Positions 2,447-34,116 of a DNA stretch of 64,000 nt are shown here, piece after piece; positions within the stretch are counted from its first letter, which is position 1; each line of letters starts with the position of its first letter. A program made the position numbers and the translations under genes. The notes under the pieces were generated by a model, which worked only from the letters and a program-made list of their open reading frames with translations, did no database searches and was not told the DNA's origin. The stretch spans positions 141,716 to 205,715 of the forward strand of contig CAJNOJ010000189.1 of NCBI GenBank assembly GCA_905250025.1. Reading direction: 5' to 3'. Source of the DNA: Adineta ricciae (lineage: Eukaryota > Rotifera > Eurotatoria > Adinetida > Adinetidae).

Positions 2447-2545
2447 TTTACATTTTCACTTTAGTAAAAAATTTTCTGCGTTTCTTGTTTTTGTTATAGT
2501 CAGTACTTTGTGTCTCCATACAAAGCATAAAAGAAATAAAGAAGA

Positions 2546-2882: not shown

Positions 2883-3533
2883 AGAGAGGCTTGAAGAAAT
2901 GCTTGAAAAGGAAAAAACAAAGTGGAAATAAACCAGCTATGCGTCACCTATGAGTAACATAGCATAAATAACATCATCAGTGGGAAAGACTAAAGCAATG
3001 CTCATGCAAAATGCAGCTCGACCTCTCCTGTACTACTTCACCAAAGAGAGCAAGGATTTTTTTCAAATAAATAATGACGAAAAGCTTACATCAAAACTGT
3101 ACACTGAAAGTCATAAAAATCAAAGCCAACAATACCACTGACGCATCAGTACAAAGTGAACTATCTCTAGATCGTAATTAGTTAAGAACAAAATACAGTA
3201 TGTTCATGTGAATTAAGTCACTACTAAGTGTACTTTAAATTTTAACTAGTTGGTACAAAAGCTATTATGTCACTAAGCTGACTCTATTCATTGCTCACAT
3301 CCTTGTTGAATAATGAAAAAAAAGTTTCTTAACCATCATATGAAATTTATTGTGCAAGATTCTCAAATTTTCTTTAATAGTATTTTTAGAAAGAAAAAGA
3401 ATACATCCATTTGCACTCAAGATACAACAGTTTTTTTCTTTGTGTGATACAATGTCACAATGATAACAACGTAAAGATAAATGTCGCTTTGTCATAGTAT
3501 CAATTATTTCTGCTTCATCATTTTCTCTTTAAA
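2883..3533. other. Intergenic region upstream of NHL gene (copy A)
   Basis: AT-rich sequence, partly conserved at 22980-23505. It is presumably promoter and 5' UTR of the NHL gene. No gene, RNA or strong motif is seen. Confidence 0.5.
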
Positions 3534-4772
3534 ATGTTTATCATGAAGGCGATTTTCATTCAAGTTTGTATAATCCAATTGTACTTCTTAGTTGTGACAT
3601 CGATTCAACTAAGTCCGTGTGCTAAATGGAATTCAACAGGAAGGACAACGGCTGGTACAGGCACTGCTGGTTCTACTTCAACTCAACTCAATTGGCCTCA
3701 TGGAATTTTTATTCATCAGCAAACCAATTCTTTATATGTTGCCGATTCGGAAAATAATCGTGTACAAGTATTCCGATTGAATGATCAATCAATGATTGCG
3801 ACAACTGTAGCATTCAACGTATCGGATCCAACGAGTGTCTATGTCGATGACGATGAGAAAGATGGACCTATTCTATATGTTGCCATGGAAGGAAGTGATC
3901 GGGTAGAAAAATGGATGAAAGGCGCCACTGTCGGCATACAAGTGGGAAGTGAATGCCGTATTTGTTCAGGTGTTTGGTTAGATAAACAAAAGAATATTTA
4001 TGCTGCGGAAGCGGTACGATTTCGTGTAGTTAAATGGTTATCAACTACACAAGCAGAAATAGTTGTTGCCGGAAAAACCGACCAATTTGGAAATAAAGAC
4101 GAACTTTTAAATGTTTTAGGAAGTATTTATGTTCATTCGACTGATGGAACAGTTTATGTTGCAGATAGACTCAACAATCGAGTACAAAAATGGACTAAAG
4201 ATGCATCATATGGCATTACTGTAGCTGGCAATGGAATTGCCAATGATACTGCTCAATCTCTTGATAATCCATTCGGTGTTTTTGTTGATGAGGGAACAGG
4301 AGTTGTCTTTGTAGTCGATACATTCAATGAAAGAATTCAACGTTGGCTTCCTGATGCTCTTCAAGGTGAAACTATCGTTGGTGATCCTGGTAAATTTGAT
4401 TATATATTCTTGATTTTAACTGTATTTTCATATAGATTCTACTAGCCCATTCAATCAATTGAAAGGTCCGACTAGTATGGCATTTGACAGCGATGGTAAT
4501 CTCTACGTTAGTGATTCACTTAATCATCGAATTCAAAAATATGCTTTATTGGATAATTCACCATGTTCATCATCATCAGCAGGTAATTGATTATATGCGT
4601 AGTCATTTCAATTTCAATTATTTGTTTTATCTTTTTGTATACAGCAATCTTTTCGGTATTATTAAAGTAAGTTAAGCGAATGATTACATGGTTTCTATGA
4701 AAATTCTGAGATTTTTTTAGATTAAACCTTATCTTTTTATTGCCATTGTGGTTTTATTCTCGATGTGAATAA
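3534..4772 (+). CDS. Secreted NHL-repeat beta-propeller protein (copy A)
   Basis: The ATG at 3534 (a second is at 3543) begins a hydrophobic signal peptide of about 25 residues. It is followed by NHL-type repeats with the pattern LYVADSENNRVQVF / VYVADRLNNRVQKW / LYVSDSLNHRIQKY, which form a beta-propeller. Proposed exons are 3534-4389, 4436-4582, 4645-4666 and 4721-4772. All three introns are GT-AG, 46-62 bases long, and keep phase. The last two small exons encode a Ser-rich stretch followed by a hydrophobic tail, which could be a GPI-anchor signal. Reading through the third donor instead would stop at 4670. The same splice sites and frames are kept in the copy at 23506-24741. Role: extracellular, binding partner unknown. 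NHL proteins are greatly expanded in bdelloids. Confidence is high for the family and moderate for the C-terminus. Confidence 0.8.
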
Positions 4773-5012
4773 TCCGAAACGCTTTTCGTCTATTTGATGC
4801 ACTTCTATTGAAATAAACATTCCCGAAAAGATCACCGAAGGAGTATTCAGTAAAATTCGGTTACGTTTGAGTGATTCCGCTTATAATGACACATTCTCGA
4901 CTCTTGACAAAAGAAACAATATTTTAATAACGTATCTTTGTTCGCTCGTTACATTGTACACATCTAAAGGTAAGCAAAAAAAAGAATATTTAACGTTTTG
5001 TTACATACTCAC

Positions 5013-6992
5013 ATGGGCGAATCAAATGTTGATCAAATAACTAAACAATCCGACGAAGAACGTCTTCCAGCATTTATTCTTGAACAATGTCTTACTGATA
5101 ATATCCAAGAAGAACAAATCGAATATAAACTAAATGCACCTTTGTGCATTTCAAAAACTTATCAAAATGAATTTTTTCCTAATGTATGTTTATGATTTGT
5201 TTTTATCGCGTATTCATTGATTATTTGTTAATCTAGTTTCATGTGAATTACTCAGGCACATTTGAAAATCAAGAGTTATTTTTCGCTTCGATTCGAGTGA
5301 TTGCGAAAGACAGTAATGAAGAAGAAGAAGAAAGAATTGTTCAGGCATTGATTCGGTAAGTTACACTAAACATGGAAGATAAAAATAACTTTTCTTTAAG
5401 AACGAAAACTAATAATTACCATGTATCAAATAAAATGAACATAACAAATGAAGAAAATCTTCTACGAATGTTATTCAACAAAGTTCAATTACAACCAATT
5501 CAGCATTATGAAATCATTCGTCATATTAACGTAAGAGAACTTCCAACAAAACTCATGGCAATCAGTGAAAATTTGACGAGATAGAAAAATTTTCTCGACA
5601 AAGTTAAAAAGGAACGGAGATTGTCACGGAGAGAGTTTTCAGCATACCCAAAGATTCAAAAAAGACGAATCTGATCAGAAAGTAGAAGTTCATAATCCAA
5701 ACACTCTTAGAATTTATAGGAATTGACTAAAATCTTGTGAGAAATGAGTTCGAATTTATGTTTCTGAAATTCGATTATAAAGGCGAATGGAAAACTTCTT
5801 GAATTTGATCAATCTAACGATGAACAATATTCGAGTAAAATCGCTCTGATATTTCAACGTTTAAATCAAACAAGTGAAGACGAAATCTTCAATAATAATG
5901 ATTTATCCATGGAAATGGAGGATTTTCTCAGTTTCATCAGCGATCGGATCGAACTGAAAAATTTTCCGAAATATCGCGGTGATCTCGATGTGAAAACCAA
6001 TGAACACGGCATTTATTCGTATTTTACGACTTTTCAAAATCATCAAATCATGTTTAATGTTGCTCAGATGATTCCGTTAGATAAAAACAATCGAAATTTT
6101 ATTCAAAGAAAAGGTTTAATTGGGAATGCATTAATCTGTGTTGTTTTTCAAGAAGGAGGCGCAACATTTCAACCGGATTTTATTCTTAGCAAAGTCACAC
6201 AAGTTTATATCACTGTTCAACCAATCAAAATCGATTCTCAACTTTATTATAAAGTTCTTATTTCCTTTGCATTGCGCGACATGAATATTTTCTTTGGTTT
6301 TTAGATCGAAATTTGGCGTCGTAATAGCATTGAACCAATCAGAGTACCGTCTGTTGGAATTATTGAAGTAAATGAATCCTTTCGAAGTTATTTTTTAACA
6401 TTATTGTTAAATACAATGAATATTATTTTGAAAAACGAATATTTCGCTAAAAGAATCATTGAACCACGACAACAATTGAGATCAGATTCAATGGATAAAC
6501 TCTCTCAATTGTTTTCTTCATATTCTAAGCCAATACCTGTCAATCTCACACAACAAGTAGCTCAACATCAACATAGTGGACTAATTCCCAAAATATTAGA
6601 AGCATTTTCAACACCTCGTCATGACACAACGAAGAAACAAATAGGAAAACCAAACTCATGGGTAACAAATTATGGAAAAGTGAAACGTTACTTATCAACG
6701 GTAAGATGAAGTTTTCGTCGGATCTTTCTGATTGTTTTTCTCTTAGAGTTCAAATAATTCAGCAACGACAGATCTTGTTGAGAATCGTGCACAACTATTA
6801 AATCCCAATTTTGAAAGATCAATTTCATCGGAATCGATTTCAAGTTTAGTTACGACTTTACCACATCATATAGGATCAAATACGGAAAAGTAATCTTTTC
6901 ATCAAATACTTTCTTTTATCTCAAACAGTTTGTTTAGATCATTTGGAAGTCATCCCAATTTGAATATTGAAGGACAATCAGTTCAAATTTAA
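5013..6992 (+). CDS. Rap-GAP domain GTPase-activating protein (copy A)
   Basis: Seven exons: 5013-5183, 5237-5355, 5401-5530, 5783-6253, 6305-6700, 6747-6889 and 6938-6992. All introns are GT-AG and phases agree, giving 494 residues. Residues about 183-365 align by motif with the Rap/Ran-GAP domain: YRGDLD, a GxHSxY-like GIYSYF, HQIMFNVAQMIP, and IGNALICVVFQEGG, whose Asn (about residue 255) is at the position of the catalytic asparagine thumb of Rap1GAP. An acidic Glu run (exon 2) precedes the domain and a Ser/Asn-rich tail follows it. It is expected to stimulate GTP hydrolysis by Rap-type small GTPases in the cytoplasm. The start is the first ATG in frame. The exon 6/7 junction is preferred over the in-frame stop at 6891 because both copies keep the downstream frame. 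Confidence 0.85.
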
Positions 6993-7837
6993 AATTTAAC
7001 TTTTTGATTATTAATCGCGCAATTTCACTAAAATATCTTGTAGAACTAACTCACTGATATCGATTATAAATGTTGCAATTGAGCAAATCAAGGAGTCAAT
7101 GATTACCGAGACAAAAGGCACTCGAATTTTTTTGGGAAATTTTTTTCTCTAATTATAATTGTTTCATCCGATGCTATGTAGGCTGCTCTCAACACAGTAT
7201 GGAAAAAGGTACATTTCTATATTATTTAAGGTGTCAATCATGACTATCGAAATAAACCAACATAAAATACGAAATTCTGTGGTATTCGTACGAGAACTGA
7301 GCCATGGTTGTTTGTTTGAGAAGGTGGAAAGTGTAGGGCGAAAACATTTTATAAATGAATTCTCAAACAGCTTATCATTTTACCATTTCTCTCAATGCAG
7401 ATGGCAACATAATGTTTATTCAACACAAAAAAATAAAATCGAAGTGCTCTTTTTTGCATTTAAAATTTTCGACAGATGTACGATGAAATAGTTTCAAAGT
7501 ACTTAAAAGAAAAAAAAAGAAAAAACAGCCATCGTAGCGAAATGTTTTGTCACACAATGTATCGGACGAACAAACTCAAATCAAAGTTTAACGTTTGTTG
7601 TTTTTAATCACGTGCACAACTGATGGTTGAAGTAGAGAGAATCTATAGTTCCCATCCATTTCTACGTGTTTATATTAATACTTGCAATACACGGGTTGTG
7701 CAAACATTCGAAGGAACAGTAAAACATGCGTGACATGAAATTTTAACTCTCTCTTTACTGTCTTCTCAATGAAATAACTACTTGTTTTGCTCGATTCTTA
7801 GATAAGTTAATATAATTTATTTTCTTGAACATCAATT
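6993..7837. other. Intergenic region (copy A)
   Basis: An AT-rich stretch between the Rap-GAP and ZIP genes. Open frames near 7159-7491 are not preserved in the other copy (26978-27790), where indels shift them. It is probably promoter and UTR sequence. No feature is supported. Confidence 0.5.
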
Positions 7838-8894
7838 ATGTGGAAACTATTCGGATTGGCTGGAAAAACTCAATCAAGATCAGCTGGTGGTGATGACGAT
7901 TCGTGTGACCCTTCGGCAGAGGATTCTGATACATATAAACTCACGTTGAGAATTATCTCTGTATTTGTCCTTCTTGTCCTATCCCTGCTCGGTGCTTCTC
8001 TTGCGATTATCTCGTCCCGAGTGAAACGTCTGCACATTAATCCTGTGATAATCAACACAGGCAAATTTTTCGGGACAGGGTATAAGCGTTAGGTATACTA
8101 AGTTATATGTTGTGAGTTACTTTTGTAGAGTCATTTTGGCAACAGGACTCATACACATGCTACCATCAGCCACAGAAGCACTCACCGATTCCTGTCTATC
8201 AGAAGATTGGAGAGCTTACGGAGCATATGCAGGTCTTTTTGCTATGTTGGCTATACTTGCCATGCAGCTTATCGAATTTTTTGCTCATCACCAATTACAT
8301 CGAGGATCGAACAAAGCCGATCCACAACCAGCTGAAGCGCCTGTCGAACATTGTGGGGAAGAAGCAGGTCATAGTCATGGTTTATCGCTTCTACAAGAAA
8401 GTTATAATCATAAGGTGAGCACCTACCTGCTCGAATTCGGTGTCGCTCTCCATTCGGTTCTCATTGGTGTGGCATTAGGCACTGAAAATGGTTCAACTTT
8501 TGTTGCTCTCTTCATTGCACTCTGTTTTCATCAGTTCTTCGAAGCGATCGCGCTCGGAGCACAGATTTCACGGTTGAATATTAAGTCCATCGTGCCAGCC
8601 ATCTTTATGATTATCTTTTTCACTTTAACCACACCGGTAGGTATTGCTATTGGTATTGGAATTCATTTCGGTACGTACAATCCAAAGTCAGTAGCCGCAT
8701 TGATGGTGAATGGAGTGTTGGATTCAGTATCAGCTGGCATTTTGATTTACGTGGCACTGGTCAATCTAATGGCTGCAGAGATGGGTGTTGGAGCACATGC
8801 ATTTTTTGCTTTGAAAAAACGATTCAAAGTTTTATATTTTGCTGCATTGTATCTTGGTGCGGCTCTCATGGCCGTTATTGGACGTTGGGCATAA
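7838..8894 (+). CDS. ZIP-family zinc/iron transporter (SLC39A1-3-like), copy A
   Basis: Two exons, 7838-8079 and 8129-8894, with a 49-base GT-AG intron (8080-8128); about 335 residues, normal for the family. The splice joins FGTG to VILATGFIHMLP-type sequence, the ZIP TM2-TM3 signature. There are about eight membrane segments. A His-containing cytoplasmic loop (HCGEEAGHSHG) precedes the two conserved metal-binding helices: HSVLIGVALG in TM4 and HQFFEAIALG in TM5, where the usual Gly after Glu is Ala. It moves Zn2+ or similar divalent metal into the cytosol across the plasma or an internal membrane. An AATAAA lies about 55 bases after the stop. It is very similar to the copy at 27791-28844. 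Confidence 0.93.
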
Positions 8895-9459
8895 AAGACC
8901 TTGAACTTATTTGCTTAGTTCCAAATAGAGAATATTTTTTCCTTTAAATCAAATAAATAGTTAGACCATATGAGTCATATATCTATATTGGAATAAACTA
9001 AGTGGACGAAGAAGAATAAATTTGTCTCACCAGTAAGAAAACTGAAAACGAACGTCGACTGAAATTTAATCTACTTTCATGGGCTTATATAGTGACACAA
9101 ATGTTGATTCGTTGATCACAGGGGGTGCCGTTTGCTTCTGTTCTACAGAGAAAGAACATTTTGTTTACTTTGATAGGCACCCCCTGTATTGTATGATGAC
9201 GTTCTCGTTAAACGTAGTCGTCTCTGACGATCAACAAAAATGTCCTTGCACAACTTCTAAACACTTCTCTTGAAGACTCATCATAGTTATTTTTCACGTC
9301 AATTATCCAAATTCGTTTCTATTTACTGAGAAGTAAGATGGTTGTGAAAGCGACTCTTAGATTTGTAATAATGACCTGACTTTGAAGAAGTGCTTCATAA
9401 AACAATATTAAAGTCACATTCATTAGGTAATATTTAATCGAGCAAAGATAGCATCTTGT
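8895..9459. other. Intergenic region downstream of ZIP (copy A)
   Basis: 3' UTR and flank of the ZIP gene, colinear with 28845-29380. It contains the small hairpin at 9119-9186. No gene is seen. Confidence 0.5.
9119..9186. repeat. Short inverted repeat with 11-base arms
   Basis: CAGGGGGTGCC at 9119-9129 is reverse-complemented exactly at 9176-9186, with 46 bases between. The other copy (29069-29134) keeps the right arm and has one change in the left. It could be a miniature fold-back element or a structured 3' UTR. Confidence 0.5.
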
Positions 9460-18098: not shown

Positions 18099-19116
18099 TT
18101 ACAATTTCATAATATAAAGTAAAGCAATAAACGGCGGTGTTACATCTATCGATGTGATGTCAGCTGTATGTGTATGTGGCTGATTGCCACCATCTACCGG
18201 TATTGAGTGCTGATGTTGACAACTGCCACATTGATTAAAACTTTTAGTATTGATCCATCGCGGAGGACTTGTATTCAATGGACCTATGAAATAAAATCAA
18301 TTTTTCGATCTTTCAATGAATTATATACTCACTTGCACTGCAAGGATTACTGTTGATATCATAATATATTGTACCAGTATCTTCAATACCTGTACTACCA
18401 CCATGTGAATGACTTGGCATTTGTGCTACAGTCAGTGTAGTATCATGTACGGTAACAGTCGGTGTTTGACTTGATGAACCACCAGTTTGTGTTGGTGCAT
18501 ATGTGGAACCGGTACCTAGAACAAGAAAAGTTCAAAAACTTCTCTTTCATCGTGATGTGTGTTTACCGGATCCAAGAACGAATCGATCTCGTAAATCAGG
18601 TGTACCTTGTGTACCATCACAAACAGCCCAACCCAAAGGAACAGTTGCGGTAGATCCACTCCTACATCGACTAAGTTATTCAATGAAGATTATATGCTTC
18701 TATCAATTACCATAACATAATCATCCCAGGTGGTACAAGAGGATACACTTTAAACAACAAATATCATGTTTTACGAAAATTTGAAAGAAAATATTCACTT
18801 GACGTAGATGTTGACGAAGTGGTGGATGTCGTTGATTCTGTTGTTGTTGTTGTTGATGTAGATGTTGAAGTAGTTGTTGTTGAAGTAGTGACATCCTCTA
18901 AAAAGTATTCACATATTAATTTAACTCCGGATCAAAAATGTTTTTTTTTCAATATAATATGCACTTACTGCGTAATAGTTCGTTGAGATATAAAGTGAGA
19001 AAAACACCGAGTACAATACCACTTACTAATGCACCGATGAACACCCAAGTGAGGAACCAAGTACGATTGGCTCGTTCCTCATTTTGAGACGAAGGCGAGT
19101 TTTGAACTTCTTTCAT
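18099..19116 (-). CDS. Type II membrane protein with phage tail-collar domain
   Basis: Six exons on the minus strand: 19116-18969, 18897-18799, 18747-18711, 18661-18567, 18515-18333 and 18283-18099. All five introns are GT-AG, 49-71 bases, with consistent phases; 248 residues. Residues 1-19 are polar, 20-43 form one hydrophobic membrane segment, and 51-82 are a stalk made almost only of Thr and Ser, a probable O-glycosylation zone. Residues 84-248 match the tail-collar family of bacteriophage tail fibres: LVPPGMIMLW, then PLGWAVCDG, TQGTPDLRDRFVLGSG (110-127), AQMPSHSHGG (157-166) and the typical ending PPFIALLYIMKL (237-248). In phages and bacteria such domains form trimeric receptor-binding or collar structures. 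Here the domain would face outside the cell. The introns show it is a resident eukaryotic gene, and the domain's phage/bacterial affinity suggests horizontal acquisition. Its function is unknown. Confidence 0.85.
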
Positions 19117-19526: not shown

Positions 19527-21224
19527 ATGTCGAAGTTTGAACAATTTCCTGCTGAAGTGTTTTATCTTATTCTTGATTATTTGAAAACATGGGAGATTTT
19601 TTACTATTTTTACAATAAATCGCAACGGATGAGTATGCTTTTACTCAATTATTCACGATATCGAATAGATTTTCGTTCAATTTCACGAGACAATTTTGAT
19701 TTCTTTCTGGAGAAAATTCGTCTAACGAACATCATTTCCTTAATTCTTTCTAACGATAATCAAACTCCAGGTCAAATTCCATTATTTCTTTCTTTAATAA
19801 ACCCTTCTGATCTCTTTCGACTTCATTATTTATCTGTTCTTCATATTGAAGAACATCATCTACTAGAATTTCTTCGTCATCTCTCTCGAAAAAATCTCAA
19901 AGCTCTAACCATTCATTGTCAACCTTCGTTTCGTTTTCGTAATCACGGCGTTGAACTTCTTTGTCTTCTCTCGTCACTTATCTTCCAATCAAAACTTCGT
20001 TATCTTCATTTCAACTTCTGGATCTTCGAAATGAAAAGTCTCACTTGGTCAATTCAATCGACTCTTCACTCTCTTCGCACCGATCTTTCATCATTTTCCG
20101 AATATTGTCTTATCCTCAATTATTTCGTCAATCTAAAAACTTTAATCTTAAACAAATGTTCGATATTCGATATTGAAAATATTTATTTATCTTACAAGTT
20201 CATGCCTCCGTGTCATTTACAATTGAAATCTTTATCAATAGACAAGATTTGCTATGTTAAAATGGAGACTTTATCATTGTTTTTATCAGTTACACCGTCG
20301 ATTAAGTATTTGAAAATCATCGGTTGCGGTTCGTTGAGAAATCAGGCATTTAACGGAAATCAATGGAAGGATTTTATCGAAGGAAAATTACGTTCTCTCG
20401 ATAAGTTTCAGTTTTATTTTCAAACGCAACGAAATCCTCAAGTTGACGTTGAAAATGTTTCATCGATAATAAATTCTTTTTCTGATTCATTTTGGATTAA
20501 CAGCAAACAATGGTTTGTCGCATGTGATTTCATTCGAAATCTTCGTCAAATTCGACTTTATTCAATTCCGATTTGTCGAACGGATTTCTATTTAATTCCT
20601 CAATGGAATTTATTCTCACGGTCAACGTTAACTTCAACTACAACGATGGAACAAATACAGAAACTTCAAGTTAATCTTTCGTCTGGTATGACAGACGAAA
20701 ACTTAATCCATAAAATATCCTTTCCAATCCGAGATTTATTTGACTTATCTTCTCCTTCGATATTTCCGCAAGTTGATGAGCTTCATTTTGAATTTGATGA
20801 TCAATGGCCAATGAATTTGCACGAGTTAATCGCAATTGATCTCTCGAGAATTGTGAAAGTTTCTTTGAATATTTATTTTGATCAAGATTCTCGCCATCAA
20901 GTTGTAATCGATGCGTTAAACGATGTATTTCAACGTATGCCAAACATTCATACTGTTTACAATATGAATCGCACAGTAAATGCGAAAATTCTTTGTTCAA
21001 TTGTTCCTTCGCATATCCAACATTTACAAACAAAAGTCAAGGAAATTCATCAAATGAAAATCATTTTACAGCATTTTCAGTGTTTATCGAGCGTAGAATT
21101 CGATTTTCTCGCTTGTTCGCCACATTTTCCAAAAACTATTATCAAATGGCTAAAAAAGAAACAGATTTTATTCGAGTTTTACTGTACACAATATTCTTTA
21201 CAATTATGGCTTGACAACAACTAA
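19527..21224 (+). CDS. F-box-like / leucine-rich protein (copy B, complete)
   Basis: A single exon of 565 residues. The N-terminus FEQFPAEVFYLILDYL fits the F-box pattern (LPxEhhxxIhxyL), the Skp1-binding motif. The rest is Leu/Ile/Phe-rich with irregular LRR-like strands (LKALTIHCQ, LRYLHFNFW, LQLKSLSID), as in bdelloid F-box/LRR proteins. The inferred role is an adaptor selecting targets for ubiquitination. The start is the first Met directly before the F-box. The 3' 258 codons are duplicated at 1-778. Confidence 0.75.
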   Translation: MSKFEQFPAEVFYLILDYLKTWEIFYYFYNKSQRMSMLLLNYSRYRIDFRSISRDNFDFFLEKIRLTNIISLILSNDNQTPGQIPLFLSLINPSDLFRLHYLSVLHIEEHHLLEFLRHLSRKNLKALTIHCQPSFRFRNHGVELLCLLSSLIFQSKLRYLHFNFWIFEMKSLTWSIQSTLHSLRTDLSSFSEYCLILNYFVNLKTLILNKCSIFDIENIYLSYKFMPPCHLQLKSLSIDKICYVKMETLSLFLSVTPSIKYLKIIGCGSLRNQAFNGNQWKDFIEGKLRSLDKFQFYFQTQRNPQVDVENVSSIINSFSDSFWINSKQWFVACDFIRNLRQIRLYSIPICRTDFYLIPQWNLFSRSTLTSTTTMEQIQKLQVNLSSGMTDENLIHKISFPIRDLFDLSSPSIFPQVDELHFEFDDQWPMNLHELIAIDLSRIVKVSLNIYFDQDSRHQVVIDALNDVFQRMPNIHTVYNMNRTVNAKILCSIVPSHIQHLQTKVKEIHQMKIILQHFQCLSSVEFDFLACSPHFPKTIIKWLKKKQILFEFYCTQYSLQLWLDNN

Positions 21225-21593
21225 AGTGAACTATGTTTGAATGGTTGGAAACTCTCTGTGTAGTTTTGTTTGTTCTTGAAAAGTTTTTTCGAAAATCAAT
21301 AAATGAAGGTGACGATGGAGAAACAATACCGATAGCATAACAGTGATAATACTGCCTTTTGACATCGGTCGAAATTATGTAAGCTTTGGAATATTTCAAA
21401 GCCGATGCATAGAATGCGATCAGAATCTGTGACTGTCGATATTACTTTTTTTCTGCATTGAAATTCCAATGTAGAACATTGACATTTTAATAAGAGTGTC
21501 TGTTTATTCAAGAATAAAATAATAGATAAGTAAAAATAGACCAAAAAGCAGTAAACTTGATGAATTTTGAAAAGAATATTGCCGTGCGATATG
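21225..21593. other. Convergent intergenic region (copy B)
   Basis: Matches 779-1150 with a few small indels. It contains an AATAAA and no gene. Confidence 0.6.
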
Positions 21594-22823
21594 CTAATTG
21601 TGTATTTGTGTCCTTTCAAGTAAAACTTCCAACTCTTCTTTTGCATTAGTATGTGCCTGTGTGATGTGCTGCATTGTTTCCTTTGCTTCTGTTTGCAGTT
21701 CTTCACATTTATCAATGACGAGTTGGCACCGACGTGACCCAAACTTGCAAGTTCCATAGCTTGTAAGAAAGAGAAACGACAAAGCTGCAGATTGATTAAC
21801 TAATGTAGCCTTTGCAATCGCAAGCGCTGTTCCTGCCTCTTTTACAGCTTGAGCTCCTGAGTATAATGCGCCTACTCCTAAACAAATGCTGGCGCCCAGA
21901 GCAACATGACCAGCCAAATCGACTCTATCCTTTCTTTTCAAAGCTTTGTTGTGATGATATATCACTTGACGTATGGTTGATTGTAATTTATCTTGTGCTG
22001 TGATGTTGGCTAGTTCAAGACGAGTAAAAGCGGCTCTGATTCTAGCTGCGCTTATGTTTGAACTTTGAATAGCTGCAATCAAGTTGCTGATGGCTTCATC
22101 AAAATTCCTCTTCACTGGCTCGAAGGTGACTTTTCCCAATTCTTTGAGCTGTTGACTCGCACCATAGGCAATATAAAGACCATAAGCAGCTATAGTTAGA
22201 GAAACAGCCACATTAGCGGTCAGAAAGGCCGGCGAATTGATAATGGTCTCGATTTGGCTGCGCAGGTTGATCACTTTCCGAAGACATTCAGAGCAACTGT
22301 CAGGAGCATATTTACGGATGAATTCGATAATTTGGCTCCATTTAACAGTAATTCCTGCAATTGCAATTCCACCAGCGGCCACTTTGAATTTATTAGCAAC
22401 TAGAGCATTCCAAATTCGATCTTCGAGGCTCTCGTGTTTATGGCGTTGAGCAGCCAAATCGCTTTGATCTTGAGACCAACGCTGGAACTGCTGTATACCT
22501 TCCGCAATCCATTGATCCAATTTAGTCACAAGTGGTTCGAGAAGCTTAGTGTTTAAAACTACATTAGCAGCAACTCCTACTCCTAATGCGACAGCTGCAT
22601 TCATAGGGCGTTGATCAGAATCAGGATTAGCAGTGTTCATTAAGGTATAGGTAACGACTGAAACTGCTTCAGTGCCGATAATACCAGTTGCAGAACGAGT
22701 GGCGGGACGAACCAATGAAGTGGGCTGTTGTTCGAGGGACGAGGCAGAAGTACAAGGTGGAGCGGATAAGTCGTCATCACTATGAGTGCCGACATTTCTG
22801 AGAACGTGGTTCACCTTGGACAA
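21594..22823 (-). CDS. Orphan protein with Gly/Ala-rich hydrophobic segments (copy B)
   Basis: Second copy of the gene at 1151-2446, with about 409 codons open. The first codon of the open frame is TTG and the homologous ATG of copy A is TTA here. The frame is preceded by TTTTCAG at the same place, so the true N-terminus probably lies in an upstream exon. Copies differ mainly in the first 60 residues, which have several replacements and small indels, while the hydrophobic core and C-terminal helix are nearly unchanged. This suggests constraint on the core. The family is not recognised. Confidence 0.62.
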   Translation of the reverse strand: MSKVNHVLRNVGTHSDDDLSAPPCTSASSLEQQPTSLVRPATRSATGIIGTEAVSVVTYTLMNTANPDSDQRPMNAAVALGVGVAANVVLNTKLLEPLVTKLDQWIAEGIQQFQRWSQDQSDLAAQRHKHESLEDRIWNALVANKFKVAAGGIAIAGITVKWSQIIEFIRKYAPDSCSECLRKVINLRSQIETIINSPAFLTANVAVSLTIAAYGLYIAYGASQQLKELGKVTFEPVKRNFDEAISNLIAAIQSSNISAARIRAAFTRLELANITAQDKLQSTIRQVIYHHNKALKRKDRVDLAGHVALGASICLGVGALYSGAQAVKEAGTALAIAKATLVNQSAALSFLFLTSYGTCKFGSRRCQLVIDKCEELQTEAKETMQHITQAHTNAKEELEVLLERTQIHN

Positions 22824-23505
22824 TGGTAACAGATGATGTAACTGAAAAGAAATTATGCTATCAATTTATATTGTCACAGTGGTAAAAATTTCCTCCGTTG
22901 TTTGTTTTCTTATAGTCAATACCTTGTGCCTCCATAGACTACATAGAAGAGATAGCGAGAAAGAAAAGATGCTTGAAGAAGTGTGTGAAAAGAAAGAAAT
23001 CAAATGGAAATAAAATAGTTATGTGTTACCTATGAGTAACATTAAATACATAACGTCATCAATGGAAGAAAAGAATCTAAATAATGTTTATGCAAAATAT
23101 ATTTCGATCTCTCCTGTACTACTTCACCAAATAGATCAAAGCTTTTTTTCAAAATAAGTAATGACGAAAAGCTTTCATCAAAATCAAAATCATCAATAGA
23201 TTGAAAACACTCGACAATATCATTGACACGTCAGTAAGAAGTGATCTCTCTCGAGATCTTAACAGATCGAAATTAAAGTGTTTTTATGTAAATTAATTCA
23301 CTACAAAATATACTTGTAGAAGATTTTCCAGTTTTAATTCATAGAATTTTTAGAAAAACAGAAGAGTATATTCATTTGCACTCAAGATATAATAACAGTT
23401 TTTTCTTTTTACAATGCAATGCACTGTCACGATGATGAAAATGTGAAGATAAGTGTCACTTTGTTATCGAATCAGGTACTTCTCCGTCGTCATTTTCTCT
23501 TTGAA
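22824..23505. other. Intergenic region (copy B), empty MITE site
   Basis: Colinear with 2447-3533 but lacking the fold-back element of copy A; the uninterrupted site is near 22965. No gene is supported. Confidence 0.55.
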
Positions 23506-24741
23506 ATGTTTATCATGAAGGCGATTTTCATTCAAGTTTGTATAATCCAATTGTACTTCTTAGTTGTGACATCGATTCAATTAAGTCCGTGTGCCAAATG
23601 GAATTCAACAGGAAGGACAACGGCTGGCACAGGCACTGCTGGTTCGACTTCAACTCAACTCGATTGGCCTCATGGAATTTTTATTCATCAGCAAACCAAT
23701 TCTTTATATGTTGCCGACTCGGAAAATAATCGTGTACAAGTATTCCAATTGAATGACCAATCAATGCTTGCGACAACTGTAGCATTCAATGTATCGGATC
23801 CAACGAGTGTCTATGTCGATGACGATGAGAAAGATGGACCTATTCTATATGTTGCCATGGAAGGAAGTAATCGGGTAGAAAAATGGACGAAAGGAGCCAC
23901 CGTTGGTATACAAGTGGGAAGAGAATGCCGTGATTGTTCAGGTGTTTGGTTAGATAAACAAAAGAATATTTATGTTGCGGAAGCAGTACGATTTCGTGTA
24001 GTTAAATGGTTATCAACTACACAAGCAGAAATAATTGTTGCCGGAAAAACCGACCAGTTTGGAAATAAAGACGAACTTTTAAATGTTTTAGGAAGTATTT
24101 ATGTTCATTCGACTGATGGAACAGTTTATGTTGCAGATAGACTCAACAATCGAGTACAAAAATGGACTCAAGGTGCATCATATGGTACTACAGTAGCTGG
24201 CAATGGAATTGCCAATGATACTGCTCAATCTCTTGATAATCCAGTCGGTATTTTTGTTGATGAGAGAACAGGAGTTGTCTTTGTAGTCGATACATTTAAT
24301 GAAAGAATTCAACGGTGGCTTCCTGACGCTCTTCAAGGTGAAACTATCGTTGGTGATTCTGGTAAATTTGATTATATATTCTTGATTTTAACTGTATTTT
24401 CATATAGATTCTACTAGTCCATTCAATCAATTGAAAGGTCCGACTAGTATGGCATTTGACAGCGATGGTAATCTCTACGTTAGTGATTCACTTAATCATC
24501 GAATTCAAAAATATGCTTTATTGGATAATTCACCATGTTCATCATCATCAGCAGGTAATTGATTATATGTGTAGCTATTTCAATTTCAATTATTTCTTTT
24601 ATCTTTTTGTATACAGCAATCTTTTCAGTATTAAAGTAAGTTAAACGAATGATTATATGGTTTCTATGAAAATTCTGACATTGTTTTAGATCAAAAATTA
24701 TCTTTTTATTACCATTGTGGTTCTATTCTCGATATGAATAA
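23506..24741 (+). CDS. Secreted NHL-repeat beta-propeller protein (copy B)
   Basis: Exons 23506-24361, 24408-24554, 24617-24635 and 24690-24741, exactly paralleling copy A at 3534-4772. The third exon is one codon shorter and still in phase. It has an N-terminal signal peptide, about five or six NHL repeats, then a short Ser run and a hydrophobic C-terminus. The open frame also extends 29 codons upstream of the chosen ATG, but copy A supports the ATG before FIMKAIF as the start. Conservation of three intron boundaries and a one-codon indel in both copies supports the model, including the last two mini-exons. Confidence 0.8.
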
Positions 24742-24987
24742 TCCGAAATACTTTTCTTCTATTTGATGCACTTTTATTGAAATAAACAGCCCCGAAAAGA
24801 TCACCGAAGAAAAGGCGAGTATTCAGTAAAATTCGGTTACGTTTGAGTGATTCCGTTTATTATGACACATTCTCGACTCTTGACAAAAGAAACAATATTC
24901 TAATAACGTATCTTTGTTCGCTCGTTACATTCTACACATCTAAAGGTAAGCAAAAAAAGAAAATTTAACGTTTTGTTACATACTCAC

Positions 24988-26977
24988 ATGGGTGAATCAA
25001 ATGTTGATCAAACAACTAAACAATCCGATGAAGAACGTCTTCCAGCATTTATTCTTGAAAAATGTCTCACTGATAATATCCAAGAAGAACAAATCGAATA
25101 TAAATTAAACGCACCTTTGTGCATTTCAAAAATTTATAAAAATGAATTTTTTCCTTATGTATGTTTATGATTTGTTTTTGTTGTATATTCATTGATTATT
25201 TGTTAATCTAGTTTCATTTGAATTACTCAGGCACATTTGAAAATCAAGAGTTATTTTTCGCTTCGATTCGAGTGATTGCGAAAGAAAGTAATGAAGAAGA
25301 AGAAGAAGAAGAAGAAAGAATTGTTCAAGCATTGATTCGGTAAGTTACACTGAACATGGAAGATAAAAATAACATTTTTTTAAGAACGAAAACTAATAAT
25401 TACCATGTATCAAATAAAATGAACATAACAAATGAAGAAAATCTTCTACGAATGTTATTCAACAAAGTTCAATTACAACCAATTCAGCATTATGAAATCA
25501 TTCGTCATATTAACGTAAGAAAACTTCCAACAAAACTCATGACAATCAGTGAAAATTACACGATATAGAAAAGTTTTCTCGACAAAGTTAAAAACTAACG
25601 GAAATTGTCACGAGGGAGAATTTTCAACACATCTAAAGATTCAACAAAGACGAATCTAATCAGAAAATAGAAGTTCATAATCCAAACACTCATAGAATTT
25701 ATAGGAATTGACTGAGATCTTGTGAGAAATCAATTCAAATTTATGTTTTTGAAATTCGATTATAAAGGCTAATGGAAAACTTCTTGAATTTGATCAATCC
25801 AATGATGAACAATATTCGAGTAAAATCGCTCTGATATTTCAACGTTTAAATCAAACAAGTGAAGATGAAATTTTCAATAATAATGATTTATCCATGGAAA
25901 TGGAGGATTTTCTCAATTTCATCAGCGATCGGATCGAACTGAAAAATTTTCCGAAATATCGCGGTGACCTCGATGTCAAAACCAATGAACATGGAATTTA
26001 TTCCTATTTTACAACTTTTCAAAATCATCAAATTATGTTTAATGTTGCTCAGATGATTCCGTTAGATAAAAACAATCAAGATTTTATTCAAAGAAAAGGT
26101 TTAATTGGAAATGCATTAATCTGTGTTGTTTTTCAAGAAGGAGGTGCAACATTTCAACCGGATTTTATTCTTAGCAAAGTCACACAAGTTTATATCACTG
26201 TTCAACCAATCAAAATTGATTCTCAACTTTATTATAAAGTTCTTATTTCATTTGCATTGTGCGACATGAATCTTTTCTTTTGTTTTTAGATCGAAATTTG
26301 GCGTCGTAGTGACATTGAACCAATCAGGGTACCGTCTGTTGGAATTATTCCAGTAAATGAGTCCTTTCGAAGTTATTTCTTAACATTATTATTAAATACA
26401 ATGAATATTATTTTGAAAAAAGATTATTTCTCTAAAAGAATCATTGAACCACGACAACAATTGAGATCAGATTCAATGGATAAACTCTCTCAATTATTTT
26501 CTTCATATTCTAAACCAATACCTGTCAATCCAACACAATCAGTAGCTCAACATCAACATAGTGGACTGATTCCGAAAATCTTAGAAGCATTTTCAACACC
26601 TCGTCATGACACAACGAAGAAACAAACAGGAAAATCAAACTCATGGATGACAAATTATGGAAAAGTGAGACGATATTTATCAACGGTAAGATGAAATTTT
26701 CATCGAGTCTTTCTGATTGTTTTTCTCTTAGAGTCCAAATAGTTCAGCAACAACAGATCTTGTTGAGAATCGTACACAACTACTAAATCCCAATTTTGAA
26801 AGATCGATTTCATCGGAATCAATTTCAAGTTTAGTTACGAGTTTACCACATCATATGGGATCAAATACGGAAAAGTAATCTTTTCATCAAATACTTTCTT
26901 TTTTCTCAAAAAGTTTGTTTAGATCATCTGGAAGTCATCCAAATTTGAATATTGAAGGACAATCAGTTAAAGTTTAA
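24988..26977 (+). CDS. Rap-GAP domain GTPase-activating protein (copy B)
   Basis: Seven exons: 24988-25158, 25212-25339, 25385-25514, 25768-26238, 26290-26685, 26732-26874 and 26923-26977; 497 residues. Every exon has the same length as in copy A except exon 2, which is 9 bases longer because the GAA (Glu) run has three more codons. The Asn-thumb motif IGNALICVVFQEGG and the YRGDLD block are unchanged. Splice sites are all GT-AG. The function is as for copy A: activation of GTP hydrolysis on a Rap-like GTPase. Confidence 0.85.
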
Positions 26978-27790
26978 AATTTAACTTTTCAATTTTTAAT
27001 CGCGCTATTTTACTAAAATATCTTGTAGAACTAACTTATTTGGATTAATTATAAACATTGCAATTGAGCACATCAAGGAGTCGATGATTACCGAGACAAA
27101 AGGCACTTGAATTTTTTTGGGGAATTATTTTCTCTAATTAATTGTTTCTTTCAATTCCATGTAGACTGTTCTCAACAAAGTATGAAAAAAGGTACATTTA
27201 TATGATATTTAAGGTGTCAATCATAACTATCGAAACAAACCAACATAAAATATGAAATTCTGCGGTATTCGTAGGAGAACTGAGCCATGGTTGTTTGTTT
27301 GAGAAGATGGAAAGTTGTAGGGCGAAAACATTTTATAAATGAATTTTCAAACAGCCTATCATTTTACCATTTCTCTCAATGCAGATGGAAACATAATGTT
27401 TATTCAGCACAAAAAAATAAAATCGAAGTGCTCTTTTTTTGGTATTCAAAATTTTCGACAGATGTACGATGAAATAGTTTCAAAGTACTTAAAAGAAAAA
27501 AGAGAAAAAACAGCTATCGTAGCGAGATGTTTTGTCACACAAAGTATCGGACGAACAAACTTAAACCAAAGTTTAACGTTTGTTGTTTTCAATCACGTGC
27601 ACAACTGATGATTGAAATAAAGAGAATCTATAGTTCTCATCCATTTCTACGTGTTTATATTAATACTCGCAATACACGGGTTGTGCAAACATTCGAAGGA
27701 ACAGTAAAATATGCGTGACATGAAATTTTAACTCTTATTTTGCTTGATTCTTAGATAAGTTAATATAATTTGTTTTCTTGAACATCGATT
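26978..27790. other. Intergenic region (copy B)
   Basis: Colinear with 6993-7837. A small open frame at 27339-27608 (89 codons) is broken in copy A by indels in A-rich runs, so it is not called a gene. Confidence 0.5.
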
Positions 27791-28844
27791 ATGTGGAAAC
27801 TATTCGGATTGACTGGAAAAACTCAATCAAGATCAGCTGGTGGTGATGATTCGTGTGACCCTTCGGCAGAGGATTCTGATACATATAATCTCACGTTGAG
27901 AATTATCTCTGTATTTGTCCTACTTGTCCTATCACTGCTCGGTGCTTCTCTTGCGATTATCTCGTCCAGAGTGAAACGTCTGCACATTAATCCTGTGATA
28001 ATCAACACAGGCAAATTTTTCGGGACAGGGTACAAGCGTTAGGTATACTAAGCTATATGTTGTGAGTTACTTTTGTAGAGTCATTTTGGCAACAGGATTC
28101 ATACACATGCTACCATCAGCCACAGAAGCACTCACCGATTCCTGTCTATCAGAAGATTGGAGAGCTTACGAAGCATATGCAGGTCTTTTTGCCATGTTGG
28201 CTATACTTGCCATGCAACTTATCGAATTTATTGCTCATCACCAATTACATCGAGGATCGAACAAAGCCGATCCACAACCAGCTGAAGCGCCTGTCGAACA
28301 CTGTGAAGAAGAAGCGGGTCATAACCATGGTTTATCGCTTCTGCAAGAAAGTCATAATCATAAGGTGAGCACCTACCTGCTTGAATTCGGTGTCGCTCTT
28401 CATTCGGTTCTCATCGGTGTGGCATTAGGCACTGAAAATGGTTCAACTTTTGTTGCTCTCTTCATTGCACTCTGTTTTCATCAGTTCTTCGAAGCGATCG
28501 CGCTCGGAGCACAGATTTCACGGTTGAACATTAAGTCCATCGTGCCAGCCATCTTTATGATTATCTTTTTCACTTTAACCACACCGGTAGGTATTGCTAT
28601 TGGTATTGGAATCCATTCCGGCACATACAATCCAAAATCAGTAGCCGCATTGATGGTGAATGGAGTGTTGGATTCAGTATCAGGTGGTATTTTGATTTAT
28701 GTGGCACTGGTCAATTTAATGGCTGCAGAGATGGGTGTTGGAGCACATGCATTTTTTGCTTTGAAAAAACGATTCAAAGTTTTATATTTTGCTGCATTGT
28801 ATCTTGGTGCGGCTCTCATGGCCGTTATTGGACGTTGGGCATAA
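27791..28844 (+). CDS. ZIP-family zinc/iron transporter (SLC39A1-3-like), copy B
   Basis: Exons 27791-28029 and 28079-28844 with a 49-base intron; about 334 residues. It is nearly identical to the copy at 7838-8894. One Asp of the N-terminal acidic run is missing and the His-rich loop reads HCEEEAGHNHG instead of HCGEEAGHSHG. The TM4 and TM5 metal-site motifs HSVLIGVALG and HQFFEAIALG are the same. Intact and presumably functional. Confidence 0.93.
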
Positions 28845-31080
28845 AAGACCTTGAACTTATTTGTTTAGTTCTAAATAGAGAATATTTTGTCCTTCAAATG
28901 AAATAAATAGTTAGACCATATGAGTTATATATCTATATTGGAATAAACTAAGTGGACGAAGAAGAATAAATTTGTCTCACCAGTTAGAAAACTGAAAACG
29001 AACGTCGACTGAAATTTAATTTACTTTCATGGGCTTATATAGTGTCACAAATGTTGATTCGTTGATCACAGGGGGTGCTGTTTGCTTCTGTTCTACAAAG
29101 AGAACACTTTGTTTACTTTGATAGGCACCCCCTGTGTTGTATGATGACGTTCTCGTTAAACGTAGTCGTCTCTGACGATCAACAAAAATGTCCTTGCACA
29201 ACTTCTAAACACTTCTCTTGAAGACTCATCATAGTTATTTTTCACGCCAATTATCCAAATTCGTTTCCATCTACTGAGAAGTAAGATGGTTGTGAGAGCG
29301 ATTCTTAGATCTGTAACAATGATCTGACTTTGAAGAAGTGCTTCACGAAAGAATATTTAATTGAGCAAAAATAACATCCTATTCGATCGATTCCTGACCC
29401 CGAATAGTTTTGGCTACAAGTTGATATGGTAAAAAATGTCAAGAGATTGAAGAAAACTAGAAATATTGATACTCGTAAAAATATTGGCGTTTGTAATTGC
29501 ACATTCAATCATTCGTCTGTTTCGTTTGTAAAGTATCTTATCGGTCACCATTGACTCCAAATTTTTTTGTGTCTATAAAAATATCAATACTATGCGGAGA
29601 TTTGACATCACCTAATTAAAAGATATTCTGATAATATCGTATTTAGATGAATCGAAAATTAAATGAATGAATCTGCAAGTTCAATGTGACGCGATTTAAA
29701 TAATGTATATACATTGAAAACTTCATTAAATGTGTTGTATGTGTCAATAAAGATCAACTGAAACAAAATAGTTTGAACAAAATATATCTCACCAAAAAAC
29801 TTTGCACTGTTGAGACCAAAAGTTAACGAAATATAAATCAATATTTGAAAAATGATTAGAAATTATACTGTGTAAGTATTCGACGACGTTATGAACGTTG
29901 ATCTGATCGATGCATCAAATTTCTATATAACCTTGTCTTTTTACGCAGTTCACAGTTAGAGACGAGATGGTAGATGTCTAGACAGCTTTGTCTTCTCAGA
30001 TTTATCAAATTACAAAGTTCTATTCGATTTATAAACTTTTTTTGTCGACACAGTTTCGAAACCAAGAATAGAGAAGATGAACAAAAATTACATGAAAACA
30101 ACCAAAAGAACAATGATAGATACCTTTCAAGAAATTATCATCGTGTATTTTATATTTTGAAATCAATAGTGCATTAGTCTTATACCAAATAAAACGCATT
30201 CAATGTTCTCCAGGTAACAATTTGAACCAATAGTTTCTGAGTTAAAATGTAAAAAAAGGAAACAGTGTTCGTATTTCCAATTCACATCTATAGGTCGTTT
30301 TCTAAGCATGCTCTCATCAGCATCTCAGAGTAAGATATCAGATTGCTGGTATTTTGATATAATTCATATTGTCATAACGCTGAATAAATCAGTATAAGAG
30401 AACTTTTTCTTCGTATCCATTGTTGTTGACAACTATATATATACGGTATATACATTGAATCTGTTGACCACGATCTAATCAGAAGAGTCCGCACTGATAA
30501 AACTGCGCTTCCCCTTATTTCCTTCTCTATGCTCGGCCATCAGAAAGAAGAAAAGGAACGAACGAACGAAGGACACTCAGCATAGTAATAGCAACCGTAC
30601 TAAAAGAAGTAACAAAAGTCATATAGATCGTCATTGCGGCAACATTCTATTTCTCTTCTGCGCAACCCTACTAAGAAACACTGGAAGGAACAGATGATCT
30701 GTTCCTAGCAAAGAGAGCTTTTATTGCGTCATATGATCCAGATTACTCTTAGTCCAAGAACGACGCGGAGAAAAGAGGAAGAAGAAATGAAAGGTCGCGA
30801 GAACGAGGTGAAGGGCAAGCAGATTTACTGATAACACATTGTGTCAATCTACGACTGTACATTTTGTCTTTTCTTCTCATGAACCAATAATGACCTTGAT
30901 ATACGTGTAACAATCTATGATTGTGCATTCCTTCTTCTCTCATCCTACACCGATAATGATATGGACTTGCGCTTCTTCCTTCTTGCTTTCCTTTTTCTTC
31001 TCTTCCTCTTCTCATGTACGACTACTTCTCGCTTTCTTTCTTTCCTTCTGTTTGTCCTTAGATATCAATCTCTAAAGTTA
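28845..31080. other. Non-coding region downstream of ZIP (copy B)
   Basis: Colinear with 8895-9473 and then, across the LINE, with 41115-42425. It contains the small hairpin at 29069-29134, the LINE empty site at 29381, and a 9+1+9 palindrome at 30687-30705 (GGAACAGATGATCTGTTCC), also present at 42203-42221. The part 30750-31080 is pyrimidine-rich on the plus strand. No gene is supported. Confidence 0.5.
29381..29393. other. Empty (pre-insertion) site of the LINE
   Basis: ATTCGATCGATTC occurs once, with the left flank matching 9400-9459 and the right flank matching 41129 onward. This copy therefore never received the LINE present in the other copy. Confidence 0.75.
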
Positions 31081-31517: not shown

Positions 31518-32340
31518 ATGGCAAATGCAGAAGAGAAAAAAGTACCGATCGAAACAGTCGCTCAAGTTACTTAGAACACTTTAACTCAACATGCAAAAGA
31601 AATCCTAGCTCTATAAGAAACTTTAGGCAGTATTCAATCTCAACAATCAACTGAAGCACAGCTACAAACCGAAATACGTGCAGTAAGGGAAATACTCGCA
31701 GAAATCCGACACCATTTAATCCCACACAATCCTGAATCATCACCTACTACAAAGATCCAACATCATACTCCTTTAACCACAACTCTGAGTACACCAACAA
31801 TTGTTGTTCCACCTATCTCAAACTTACCTGAAACGTGGGATGAGTTCACCACACAATTCCTTGCACAATTTCATTTACCAATTTGTATTTCGCAACAAGA
31901 AAACGAAACCATTAATGAATTTGTGGTTTGTCTGCGCTCACTTTGGCTGGAACAAAAACCGGACGAAAAGGAAACTGATTTTATTAAACATCTGTTATGT
32001 AAAATGAAACCTGATATGTTAGCAGTTATGAACGCTAACCGTCCCCAAACCTTATCTAACATCATAACAGAAGCTCAACAAGTGGAAGAAATATTATATT
32101 TACGGGATAAAGAAGAGAGACGATGTGCAAACGAACGATCAAAACTAGCTGCCAATACTCCATTATTAACATTAAGTACAAACAACCAATATTCAGCGCG
32201 AAACACACCAAATACCTCACCTTTTTCTTTCACACCCACTTGCTGGCGCTGTTATGAAACCGGTCACTATGCTATAATTTGCCCCCTAAACAAAACTCGT
32301 CGAACCTTTGAAGTAACAGACAACCTCCAACAGCCATTAC
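31518..32340 (+). pseudogene. Gypsy gag remnant
   Basis: Begins with an ATG at 31518 but meets a stop after 18 codons. The capsid-like region (31800-32110) and one CCHC zinc knuckle (CWRCYETGHYAIIC near 32250) are readable farther on in other frames. It matches the gag fragment at 46786-47153 at protein level. Non-functional because of internal stops. Confidence 0.7.
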
Positions 32341-32435
32341 CACAACGTGCAAAGAAACAGCTAAGAAGTTTTCGTGAAGCGGGAACACAAAACTCCTATC
32401 ACCCAAACCCGCAAAGTCCTAAAATGTCATACGTA

Positions 32436-34116
32436 AATACCATAGACTCCTCCCACAATCATCCCCTTATAATCCACGGAAGGATCGGTGCGTTACCGAT
32501 TACCTTCCTAGTTGATACCAGCTTTACCCTAACTCTGATCAATTTACAAACCTTTAACTGCCTCAGTCCCAGACTCATCCAATCACGCTACAAGCCACCA
32601 TCGTCAATCACTACACATGGCCGATCATTCACCACTTACTATAAAATGGGTTGTAAATCTACCTTTCACATTCAATAACACCACTCATTGGCACCTCACT
32701 TACGTAGTACCAAATTTATGGCGACCATGTATCATTGGTAATAACTTTATCCGGACACATCAACTTATTATTGATGGCGCACATCAAAATGTCTATTACT
32801 GATCTCAACGAATCAGACCCCGTTACCATTCAGTACTCAACACAAATACATCAACCAACCATTATGATACCCTGTACGAAAACCTACCTGATAACGCATC
32901 TCACATTCAGATAAATTACAACAAATAGAAAAACCCGACTTATCAAAGTCAATATTAGATGAACATCAACAACAACAGCTGTCAAAAGTTCTGCAAGCAT
33001 TTCCTCAACTGTTTACTAATACATCAGGGCGTACAAACGTAATAAAACACCATATTGATATACAACCTGGAAGCAGACCATGTAACTCACCTCCTTATCG
33101 TTACGCGCCAGCACGTCGAAAAATTATTAAAGAAGAACTTAGTAAAATGTTAAATGACGGTATTATAATCCCGTCTAAAAGTCCATGGGCGTCGCCTGTA
33201 GTATTAGCTCCAAAAAAAAAGATGGGACGATGCGCTTCTGCATAGATTATCGAAAACTCAATAATATTACAATACGGGATGCTTATCCATTACCACGCAT
33301 TGATGATACCTTAGATTCGTTACAACAAGCTCAGTTCTTCTCAATGCTTGATCTACGATCCGATTATTGGCAAGTTGAGATGGATGAAAACAGCAAACCT
33401 ATTACTGCGTTTGTTACTCATCGTGGTCTCTTGGAATGCACAGTTATGCCGTTTGGTCTTACAAACGCTCCGGCAACGTTTCAAAGATTAATGGATATTG
33501 TATTATCGGGACTTAAATGGCAATGTTGCTTGGTATATTTAGATGATATCCTGTATTTTCTGCAACGTTTGAAGAACATCAACAAGACCTACGAAAAGTA
33601 TTTACTGCTTTATCGGATGCAAACCTTACACTCAAAGCTTCAAAATATAATTTTTGTTTATGAGAAATTAAATATTTAGGGCACCTCGTCACGCCAGAAG
33701 GCATCAAACCAGATCCTACACTGGTGGACACAGTGGTCGAAGCCAAACAACAAGTTACAATCAGAGATGTTCAAGCGTTTCTTGGACTCACCGGTTATTA
33801 TCGACGTTTCATTAAACACTGTGCACAAATGTCAGAACCGCATCTGAAATTATTAAGATGTAATCAAAACTCAACATCATGTTATCTAATACAATGGAAC
33901 GATGATTGTACCACAGTATTTAATACTTTAAAACAACGACTAGTATCATCACCTATGATGCAACTTCCAAACTTTTCTTATCCTTTTATACTGGAATTAG
34001 ACGCATGTGAATACGGTGTTGGACGCGTACTTACTCGAGAATATAACAAACACAAATCTGTGATTGCATATATGCAAGCCAGACACTCAACGCAGTCTAA
34101 TGCCTGGCTCTCGTGA
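32436..34116 (+). pseudogene. Gypsy pol remnant: protease, RT, start of RNase H
   Basis: The aspartic protease active-site region is near 32510 (LVDTS). RT motifs run from about 32975 to 33680, including the YLDD catalytic box near 33535. RNase H begins at 33724. The frame is broken at an A9 run (33212-33220), at a stop before 33670 and again near 34116. It stops short of the RNase H C-terminus. Confidence 0.75.

Follow-up and report, generated by a model that had tools for sequence, protein, structure and literature searches.

Results

Structure of the collar gene

The window analyzed here is a 64,000-nucleotide (nt) stretch of the genome of the bdelloid rotifer Adineta ricciae (positions 141,716 to 205,715 of contig CAJNOJ010000189.1, hereafter C189), and the gene of interest lies on its minus strand, from the ATG at 19116 to the end of the stop codon at 18099. 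Its six exons encode a 248-residue protein in which a hydrophobic segment and a Thr/Ser stalk precede a 166-residue tip, or collar, domain that resembles the tips of phage tail fibers. All five introns run from GT to AG, and their GC content (0.22-0.33) is lower than that of the exons (0.39-0.48). The features of the gene are as follows, in window coordinates.

18969..19116, minus strand: exon 1 (148 nt), with the ATG, the N-terminal tail and the sole hydrophobic segment (anchor A, residues ~20-45)
18898..18968, minus strand: intron 1 (71 nt, phase 1)
18799..18897, minus strand: exon 2 (99 nt), with the Thr/Ser stalk, residues 52-82; the anchor-swap junction of the copies on contigs C555 and C89 aligns at ~18832
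18748..18798, minus strand: intron 2 (51 nt, phase 1), common to the four close copies
18711..18747, minus strand: exon 3 (37 nt), start of the collar (YPLVPPGMIMLW)
18662..18710, minus strand: intron 3 (49 nt, phase 2), kept in five A. ricciae copies including that on contig C246
18567..18661, minus strand: exon 4 (95 nt), collar core GWAVCDGTQGTPDLRDRFVLGSG, which holds C109 and G111, both unchanged across 53 sequences
18516..18566, minus strand: intron 4 (51 nt, phase 1), kept in the same five copies, including C246
18333..18515, minus strand: exon 5 (183 nt), with QMPSHSHGG and HxH motif 1 (H162, H164), both His invariant in 53 sequences
18284..18332, minus strand: intron 5 (49 nt, phase 1), in the four close copies and not in C246
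18099..18283, minus strand: exon 6 (185 nt), with the variable tip region, HxH motif 2 (H211, H213), HxH motif 3 (H224, H226), the end PPFIALLYIMKL and the stop codon
18080..18832, minus strand: block shared with C555 (87.5%) and C89 (85.8%), comprising the stalk end, the four collar exons with their introns, and the stop codon
18070..18075, minus strand: AATAAA, a poly(A)-signal-like hexamer ~23 nt past the stop codon, as read from the sequence

A sequence-only reading of the window had placed the gene at 18099..19116, with six exons and five GT-AG introns that keep phase. The ATG and stop codon match these coordinates exactly, and the spliced product is the same as the public A. ricciae protein P0001 (100% identity over the searched residues 83-248, with the full 248 letters the same). 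P0001 is most likely a gene prediction as well. Its name in UniRef, 'Phage tail collar domain-containing protein', answers in the affirmative the question of whether the protein was already present in rotifer annotations.

Copies of the gene and selection on the collar

A protein search of the 130-Mb A. ricciae assembly recovered the window gene together with C189b (20.5 kb before it on the same contig) and copies on C89 and C555. A further copy on C246 is 44% identical over collar residues 43-166, and weak matches were found on C328 (with a stop inside) and on C266 (two marginal matches). Introns 2 to 5 are common to the window gene, C189b, C89 and C555, and introns 3 and 4 also occur in C246. 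Since the introns recur in copies and a homologue in Adineta vaga (76%) sits on a 16.3-Mb contig, the window gene is neither a chance arrangement nor a bacterial contaminant; the introns, the paralogues and the A. vaga contig together ruled out a contaminant or artefact, an origin that would have overturned the earlier interpretation. Over 166 collar codons, the ratio of nonsynonymous to synonymous substitution rates (dN/dS, by NG86) is 0.48 between the window gene and C189b (dS 0.06); the remaining five pairs of the four close copies lie at 0.17-0.30 (dS 0.16-0.28). The collar domain is therefore under purifying selection. Several public bdelloid models are incomplete, which would fit a recent, non-functional insertion or contamination, but such an origin is highly improbable given the introns, the five A. 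ricciae loci, the long A. vaga contig, the presence of the gene in three genera and the purifying selection.

Relationship of the tip domain to phage tail-fiber tips

The Pfam Collar profile PF07484 matches residues 90-113 of the window protein only (profile positions 1-22 of 57, E = 2.9e-4), and the 21.2 bits of this match fall below the curated whole-protein cut-off of 24 bits. The relatives P0002, P0004, P0005 and P0110 likewise remain below the cut-off. Thus, the tail-collar profile search proposed by the sequence-only reading returned a partial, sub-threshold match, and the 'complete tail-collar module' of that reading is not borne out by Pfam; the window domain is a short-form collar in which a large part of the Pfam model is missing. 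An NCBIfam scan of the protein gave four matches, all far below cut-off and mostly over the anchor and stalk, and the SUEL lectin domain (PF02140) was absent among its Pfam matches.

Searches against phage sequences covered the domain more fully. The window protein matched the PHROG families 5795 (E 1.7e-27) and 1800 (E 5.6e-21), with E-values that are inflated because both matches begin in the stalk, and a tblastn search of phages with the collar only gave an E-value of 1e-20 with 99% of the query covered. Most or all of the window domain is covered by matches to families of phage tails, to phage records and to solved fiber tips. At the level of sequence comparison, the window tip is kin to phage tail-fiber tips along the domain. 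The closest solved relatives by profile are 9qgo, 9nxk (Pseudomonas phage Pa223) and 6ov6 (C24, from a Bizionia argentinensis phage), and 6ov6 and 9nxk appear close to the window tip by fold as well; unlike the anchored rotifer protein, all three are phage structural proteins. Other close known systems are the receptor-binding domain of gp12, from the short tail fiber of phage T4, and the tip of gp37, from its long tail fiber (1ocy, 1pdi, 2xgf). In contrast to the T4 fibers, the rotifer protein has a membrane anchor and a Thr/Ser stalk instead of a fiber shaft and is encoded by an animal gene with introns, and its short core lacks an insert that is present in gp12.

Membrane anchor, stalk and topology

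Kyte-Doolittle hydropathy identified one hydrophobic segment in the 248 residues, near the N-terminus, where the five best 19-residue spans start at residues 21-26 and have means of 2.31-2.36 (2.36 at 22 and 24). Thr or Ser accounts for 29 of the 31 residues of the stalk (residues 52-82). The Thr/Ser stalk that had been proposed from the sequence and, by hydropathy, the segment of the proposed membrane anchor are thus both present. We infer that the C-terminus of the protein is outside the cell, as expected of a type II membrane protein. An alternative is that the protein is secreted or internal, with the hydrophobic segment serving as a signal peptide or with the topology reversed. The charges flanking anchor A are balanced, and in the bdelloid relatives P0005 and P0110 no Thr/Ser stalk accompanies the hydrophobic segment at the N-terminus, both of which are compatible with this alternative. 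The long hydrophobic run that begins ~20 residues into the protein and is followed by the stalk argues against it, however, as does the RKK at the N-terminal side of anchor B, the different N-terminus of the C89 and C555 copies, and a secreted or internal protein therefore seems quite unlikely.

Conservation of the HxH motifs

Among 53 aligned sequences, the only invariant columns are C109, G111, H162 and H164. Exactly three HxH motifs occur at aligned places in each of the ten bdelloid domains that reach across the tip, of which nine are complete and one, Rotaria P0112, lacks the start. At least one HxH motif is found in 271 of 272 rows that are not of the bdelloid type, and exactly three in 71 of the 272. 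The count leaves aside seven further public bdelloid models that are incomplete: P0006, P0008 and P0009 stop after HxH motif 1, the core is missing from P0111, P0113 continues into other sequence, and P0119 and P0121 lack HxH motif 1. In the latter two (both from Adineta steineri), a collar piece follows a seven-helix receptor-like sequence, and these may be fused gene predictions.

The equivalents of HxH motif 1 are HKH in T4 gp12, HYH in 9qgo and HTH in 9nxk, whereas 6ov6, unlike the window tip, has no HxH at the aligned place. According to PMC11705849, such HxH motifs bind iron in T4 gp37. The sequence from HxH motif 1 to HxH motif 2 differs among paralogues and genera.

Relatives and phylogeny of the collar

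Homologues were found in other bdelloids of the genera Adineta, Didymodactylos and Rotaria; the named relatives beyond A. ricciae, among the best 120 of 925 matches, are from A. vaga, A. steineri, Didymodactylos carnosus and Rotaria sordida. The metagenome proteins P0007, P0010, P0014, P0114 and P0141 seem to run on through an intron located where intron 4 or 5 lies, and therefore probably derive from intron-bearing genes. On prokaryote genome contigs, 250 relatives were detected by one pattern and 80 were kept, the best being 42% over most of the collar, and four loci related to the collar were found on viral contigs.

A 207-row tree places all 13 rows of the bdelloid type, 10 of them named, in a single 14-row set with a Shimodaira-Hasegawa-like approximate likelihood ratio test (SH-aLRT) value of 99; the fourteenth row is P0031, a phage-type protein. 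A 73-row tree unites the ten named rows with one ungrouped row (100/96), and a strict clade of the ten named rows is not rejected by the approximately unbiased test (p-AU 0.458). Thus, the bdelloid rows group together, and the root and the donor stay ambiguous on the 126 columns of the alignment. The sequence-only reading is partly supported: a phage-type tip is joined to an anchor and stalk in an animal gene with introns, which has relatives in three bdelloid genera and is under purifying selection among the A. ricciae copies. Its location in host DNA, with host-type introns and paralogues, agrees with horizontal acquisition, and the nesting of the bdelloid rows among phage and prokaryote homologues is ambiguous.

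It is conceivable that the anchored tip arrived ready-made from a giant virus of protists. Foldseek matched the tip to proteins of Terrestrivirus (A0A3G4ZMD8) and Fadolivirus (A0A7D3V7S9), and three small collar proteins in the 207-row tree, P0061, P0091 and P0099, begin with a hydrophobic segment; because of the fold matches, these three are perhaps from protist viruses. However, they lie outside the 25 rows nearest the window gene and lack a long Thr/Ser stalk, which makes delivery by a giant virus very unlikely.

Exchange of anchors with a lectin-type gene

The C89 and C555 copies share the collar block with the window gene and begin with anchor B. Positions 1656-2414 of C555 align with window positions 18832-18080 (87.5%), while C555 positions 1100-1650, which hold anchor B and the first part of the stalk together with ~350 bases of flank on the 5' side, match C549 at 78.5%. 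The two alignments are ~six bases apart, within the stalk. The rest of the 6-kb C555 stretch has no DNA-level match to the window, and in the 9.9-kb C89 stretch the sole window match outside the block at E <= 1e-8 is 50 bases at 47386. C549 shares the 5' flank, anchor B and stalk start with the C555 collar gene, and anchor B occurs at C89 too. C549 continues after its anchor and stalk with EGF-like stretches (the best at 22.0 bits, slightly short of the cut-off of 22.1) and with a D-galactoside/L-rhamnose-binding SUEL lectin domain (PF02140, 41.4 bits versus a cut-off of 31.4), and no collar was found; these domains were read as successive frames. At a second anchor-B locus, on C452, an EGF-like stretch runs into an N, and SUEL was absent among the matches listed.

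Judged from these alignments, the C555 and C89 copies are chimeras in which a window-type stalk end and collar are preceded by the anchor of an EGF-like/SUEL-lectin gene together with its 5' flank. Since the two alignments adjoin in C555, the collar block was put behind the lectin-type 5' part, or the exchange ran the other way. Anchor A is suggested to be the older in Adineta because A. vaga and A. steineri have it. On contig C203 (L049, 86200-89400), two adjoining exons encode anchors with slight similarity to anchor A (47% and 45% over ~30 residues); each precedes other sequence, and the one frame scanned had no Pfam match.

Large scaffolds and long-form collars

A window-type collar is also located on a scaffold of ~430 residues, in C246 (P0209) and in A. 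vaga P0210. (The predicted structure of P0210 had a mean predicted local distance difference test score of 43.6 and was not used.) A 185-residue part of the scaffold was found in 27 proteins, of which 21 are marked Pfam Collar, and all those with an organism name are from bdelloids (A. ricciae, A. vaga, A. steineri, D. carnosus and several Rotaria). The seven read of these 21, including D. carnosus P0211, all have a long-form collar. Since P0209 and P0210 have a window-type collar on the same scaffold, one scaffold carries two collar types in different species.

The long-form collars of A. ricciae gave 19 Pfam Collar matches, all over the cut-off and 17 without an internal stop, on contigs C4, C99, C105, C171, C249, C266, C299, C462, C481, C519, C523, C594, C817 and C847. 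Like the window gene, they have the collar at the C-terminus, and one scaffold type also occurs in Rotaria and Didymodactylos; they differ from the window type in their long core and in reaching the PF07484 cut-off. Most of those read have a DPGHNHGG-like motif, and several lie at or near the end of open frames of 400-800 residues. The nine sampled long-form collars group apart from the short form, in a tree set that was collected with the short form and may miss prokaryote kin of the long form. A common origin of both bdelloid types costs 7.4 log units and is not rejected (p-AU 0.36), so that independent origins are not demonstrated.

The tip thus occurs on four kinds of carriers (anchor A with a stalk, anchor B with a stalk, short forms without a stalk, and the large scaffold), and these comparisons of gene sequences identify it as a mobile module that has moved between carriers. 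The sequence-only reading had overlooked the other anchors and scaffolds and the lectin gene as an anchor partner.

Surroundings of the gene

The window contains a ~20.4-kb direct segmental repeat (positions 1-9409 and 20447-29357, with pieces 93-96% identical) that doubles frames which by eye are F-box-like, NHL-repeat-like and transporter-like. The repeat also doubles the collar gene, in the 10 kb before the window (L026, C189:131716-141715), and is either a real tandem duplication or stitched haplotypes. FG-GAP-like repeats, likewise recognized by eye, are found in a 1,794-residue frame (47983-53367) and a shorter second copy (55631-57412), which are part of a local duplication (51541-53503 versus 55586-57545, 96% identical). 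Retroelement-like frames at 31923-34116, 37580-40585 and 44362-44958 (by eye) include gag/zinc-knuckle and reverse-transcriptase pieces, a 1,001-residue frame resembling a long interspersed nuclear element, and an integrase-like piece.

Discussion

What is the role of a phage-type tip on an animal membrane protein? Phage tips of this kind bind bacterial surface structures, and the explanation we favor, at somewhat better than even odds as a whole, is that the tip was turned into a trimeric, lectin-like surface protein. In this scheme, an ancestor of Adineta, Rotaria and Didymodactylos would have gained, in a single event, the receptor-binding tip found at the C-terminal end of a tail fiber of the phage type, and the coding stretch would have picked up short introns and been placed downstream of a Thr/Ser stalk with a membrane anchor at the N-terminus. 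The N-terminus of the protein is probably inside the cell and the stalk and tip outside, with three tips probably wrapped as one trimer in which the three HxH motifs of each chain may form axial metal sites, by analogy with the T4 fibers. On body surfaces or those used in feeding, the trimer would probably serve as a lectin-like receptor or adhesin for glycans of the bacterial envelope. As the comparison of genes shows, the tip has been passed among carriers, to give the anchor A, anchor B and stalkless short forms and the large scaffold.

The main alternative is that the tip was kept only as a compact trimerizing cap that has no microbial ligand and clusters the stalk and N-terminal parts, perhaps for adhesion or as a structural coat. 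The invariant positions are those of the structural core and the HxH motif, and the same tip is found on unrelated carriers, as expected of a generic trimerizing module. These two points weigh against a surface lectin, as do the sub-threshold PF07484 score, the balanced charges beside anchor A and the seven incomplete bdelloid models. A mere cap would not readily account, however, for the variable sequence between HxH motifs 1 and 2 among paralogues and genera, or for an anchor held in common with a lectin gene, and we consider it possible but on the whole unlikely. That a lectin gene is the anchor partner is suggestive of ligand binding, although it is no proof of it. Beyond a lectin-like role for the tip, there may be a combinatorial system of surface recognition in bdelloids, in which phage tips, anchors and secreted scaffolds are swapped through moves of short segments at the repetitive stalk to give many lectin-like receptors for bacteria; such a system is a doubtful prospect at present.

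Gene transfer into bdelloids, animals long thought sexless, is well known, and the acquired genes discussed in print are often enzymes. No description of a rotifer, metazoan or membrane-anchored tail-collar protein was found among the papers listed; lists of horizontally transferred genes are usually placed in supplements. In the main text, a word search found no 'phage', 'collar', 'tail' or 'lectin' in PMC4632278 and PMC3499245, and no 'phage', 'collar' or 'lectin' in PMC5916493. The use of a phage tail-fiber tip in a membrane-anchored protein of an animal, also on an anchor of the lectin type, is new as far as searched.

The part acquired here is the cell-binding tip of a virus, which has retained its metal-site signature and been joined to animal-type carriers. 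If the tip binds bacteria, a recognition tool of phages would have been turned to the animals' own use. The anchor swaps offer a direct view of exon-scale shuffling that is open to experiment, and the related rotifer genes with the same tip on other carriers suggest that bdelloids have put a viral grappling hook to a second use, as a protein of their own surface.
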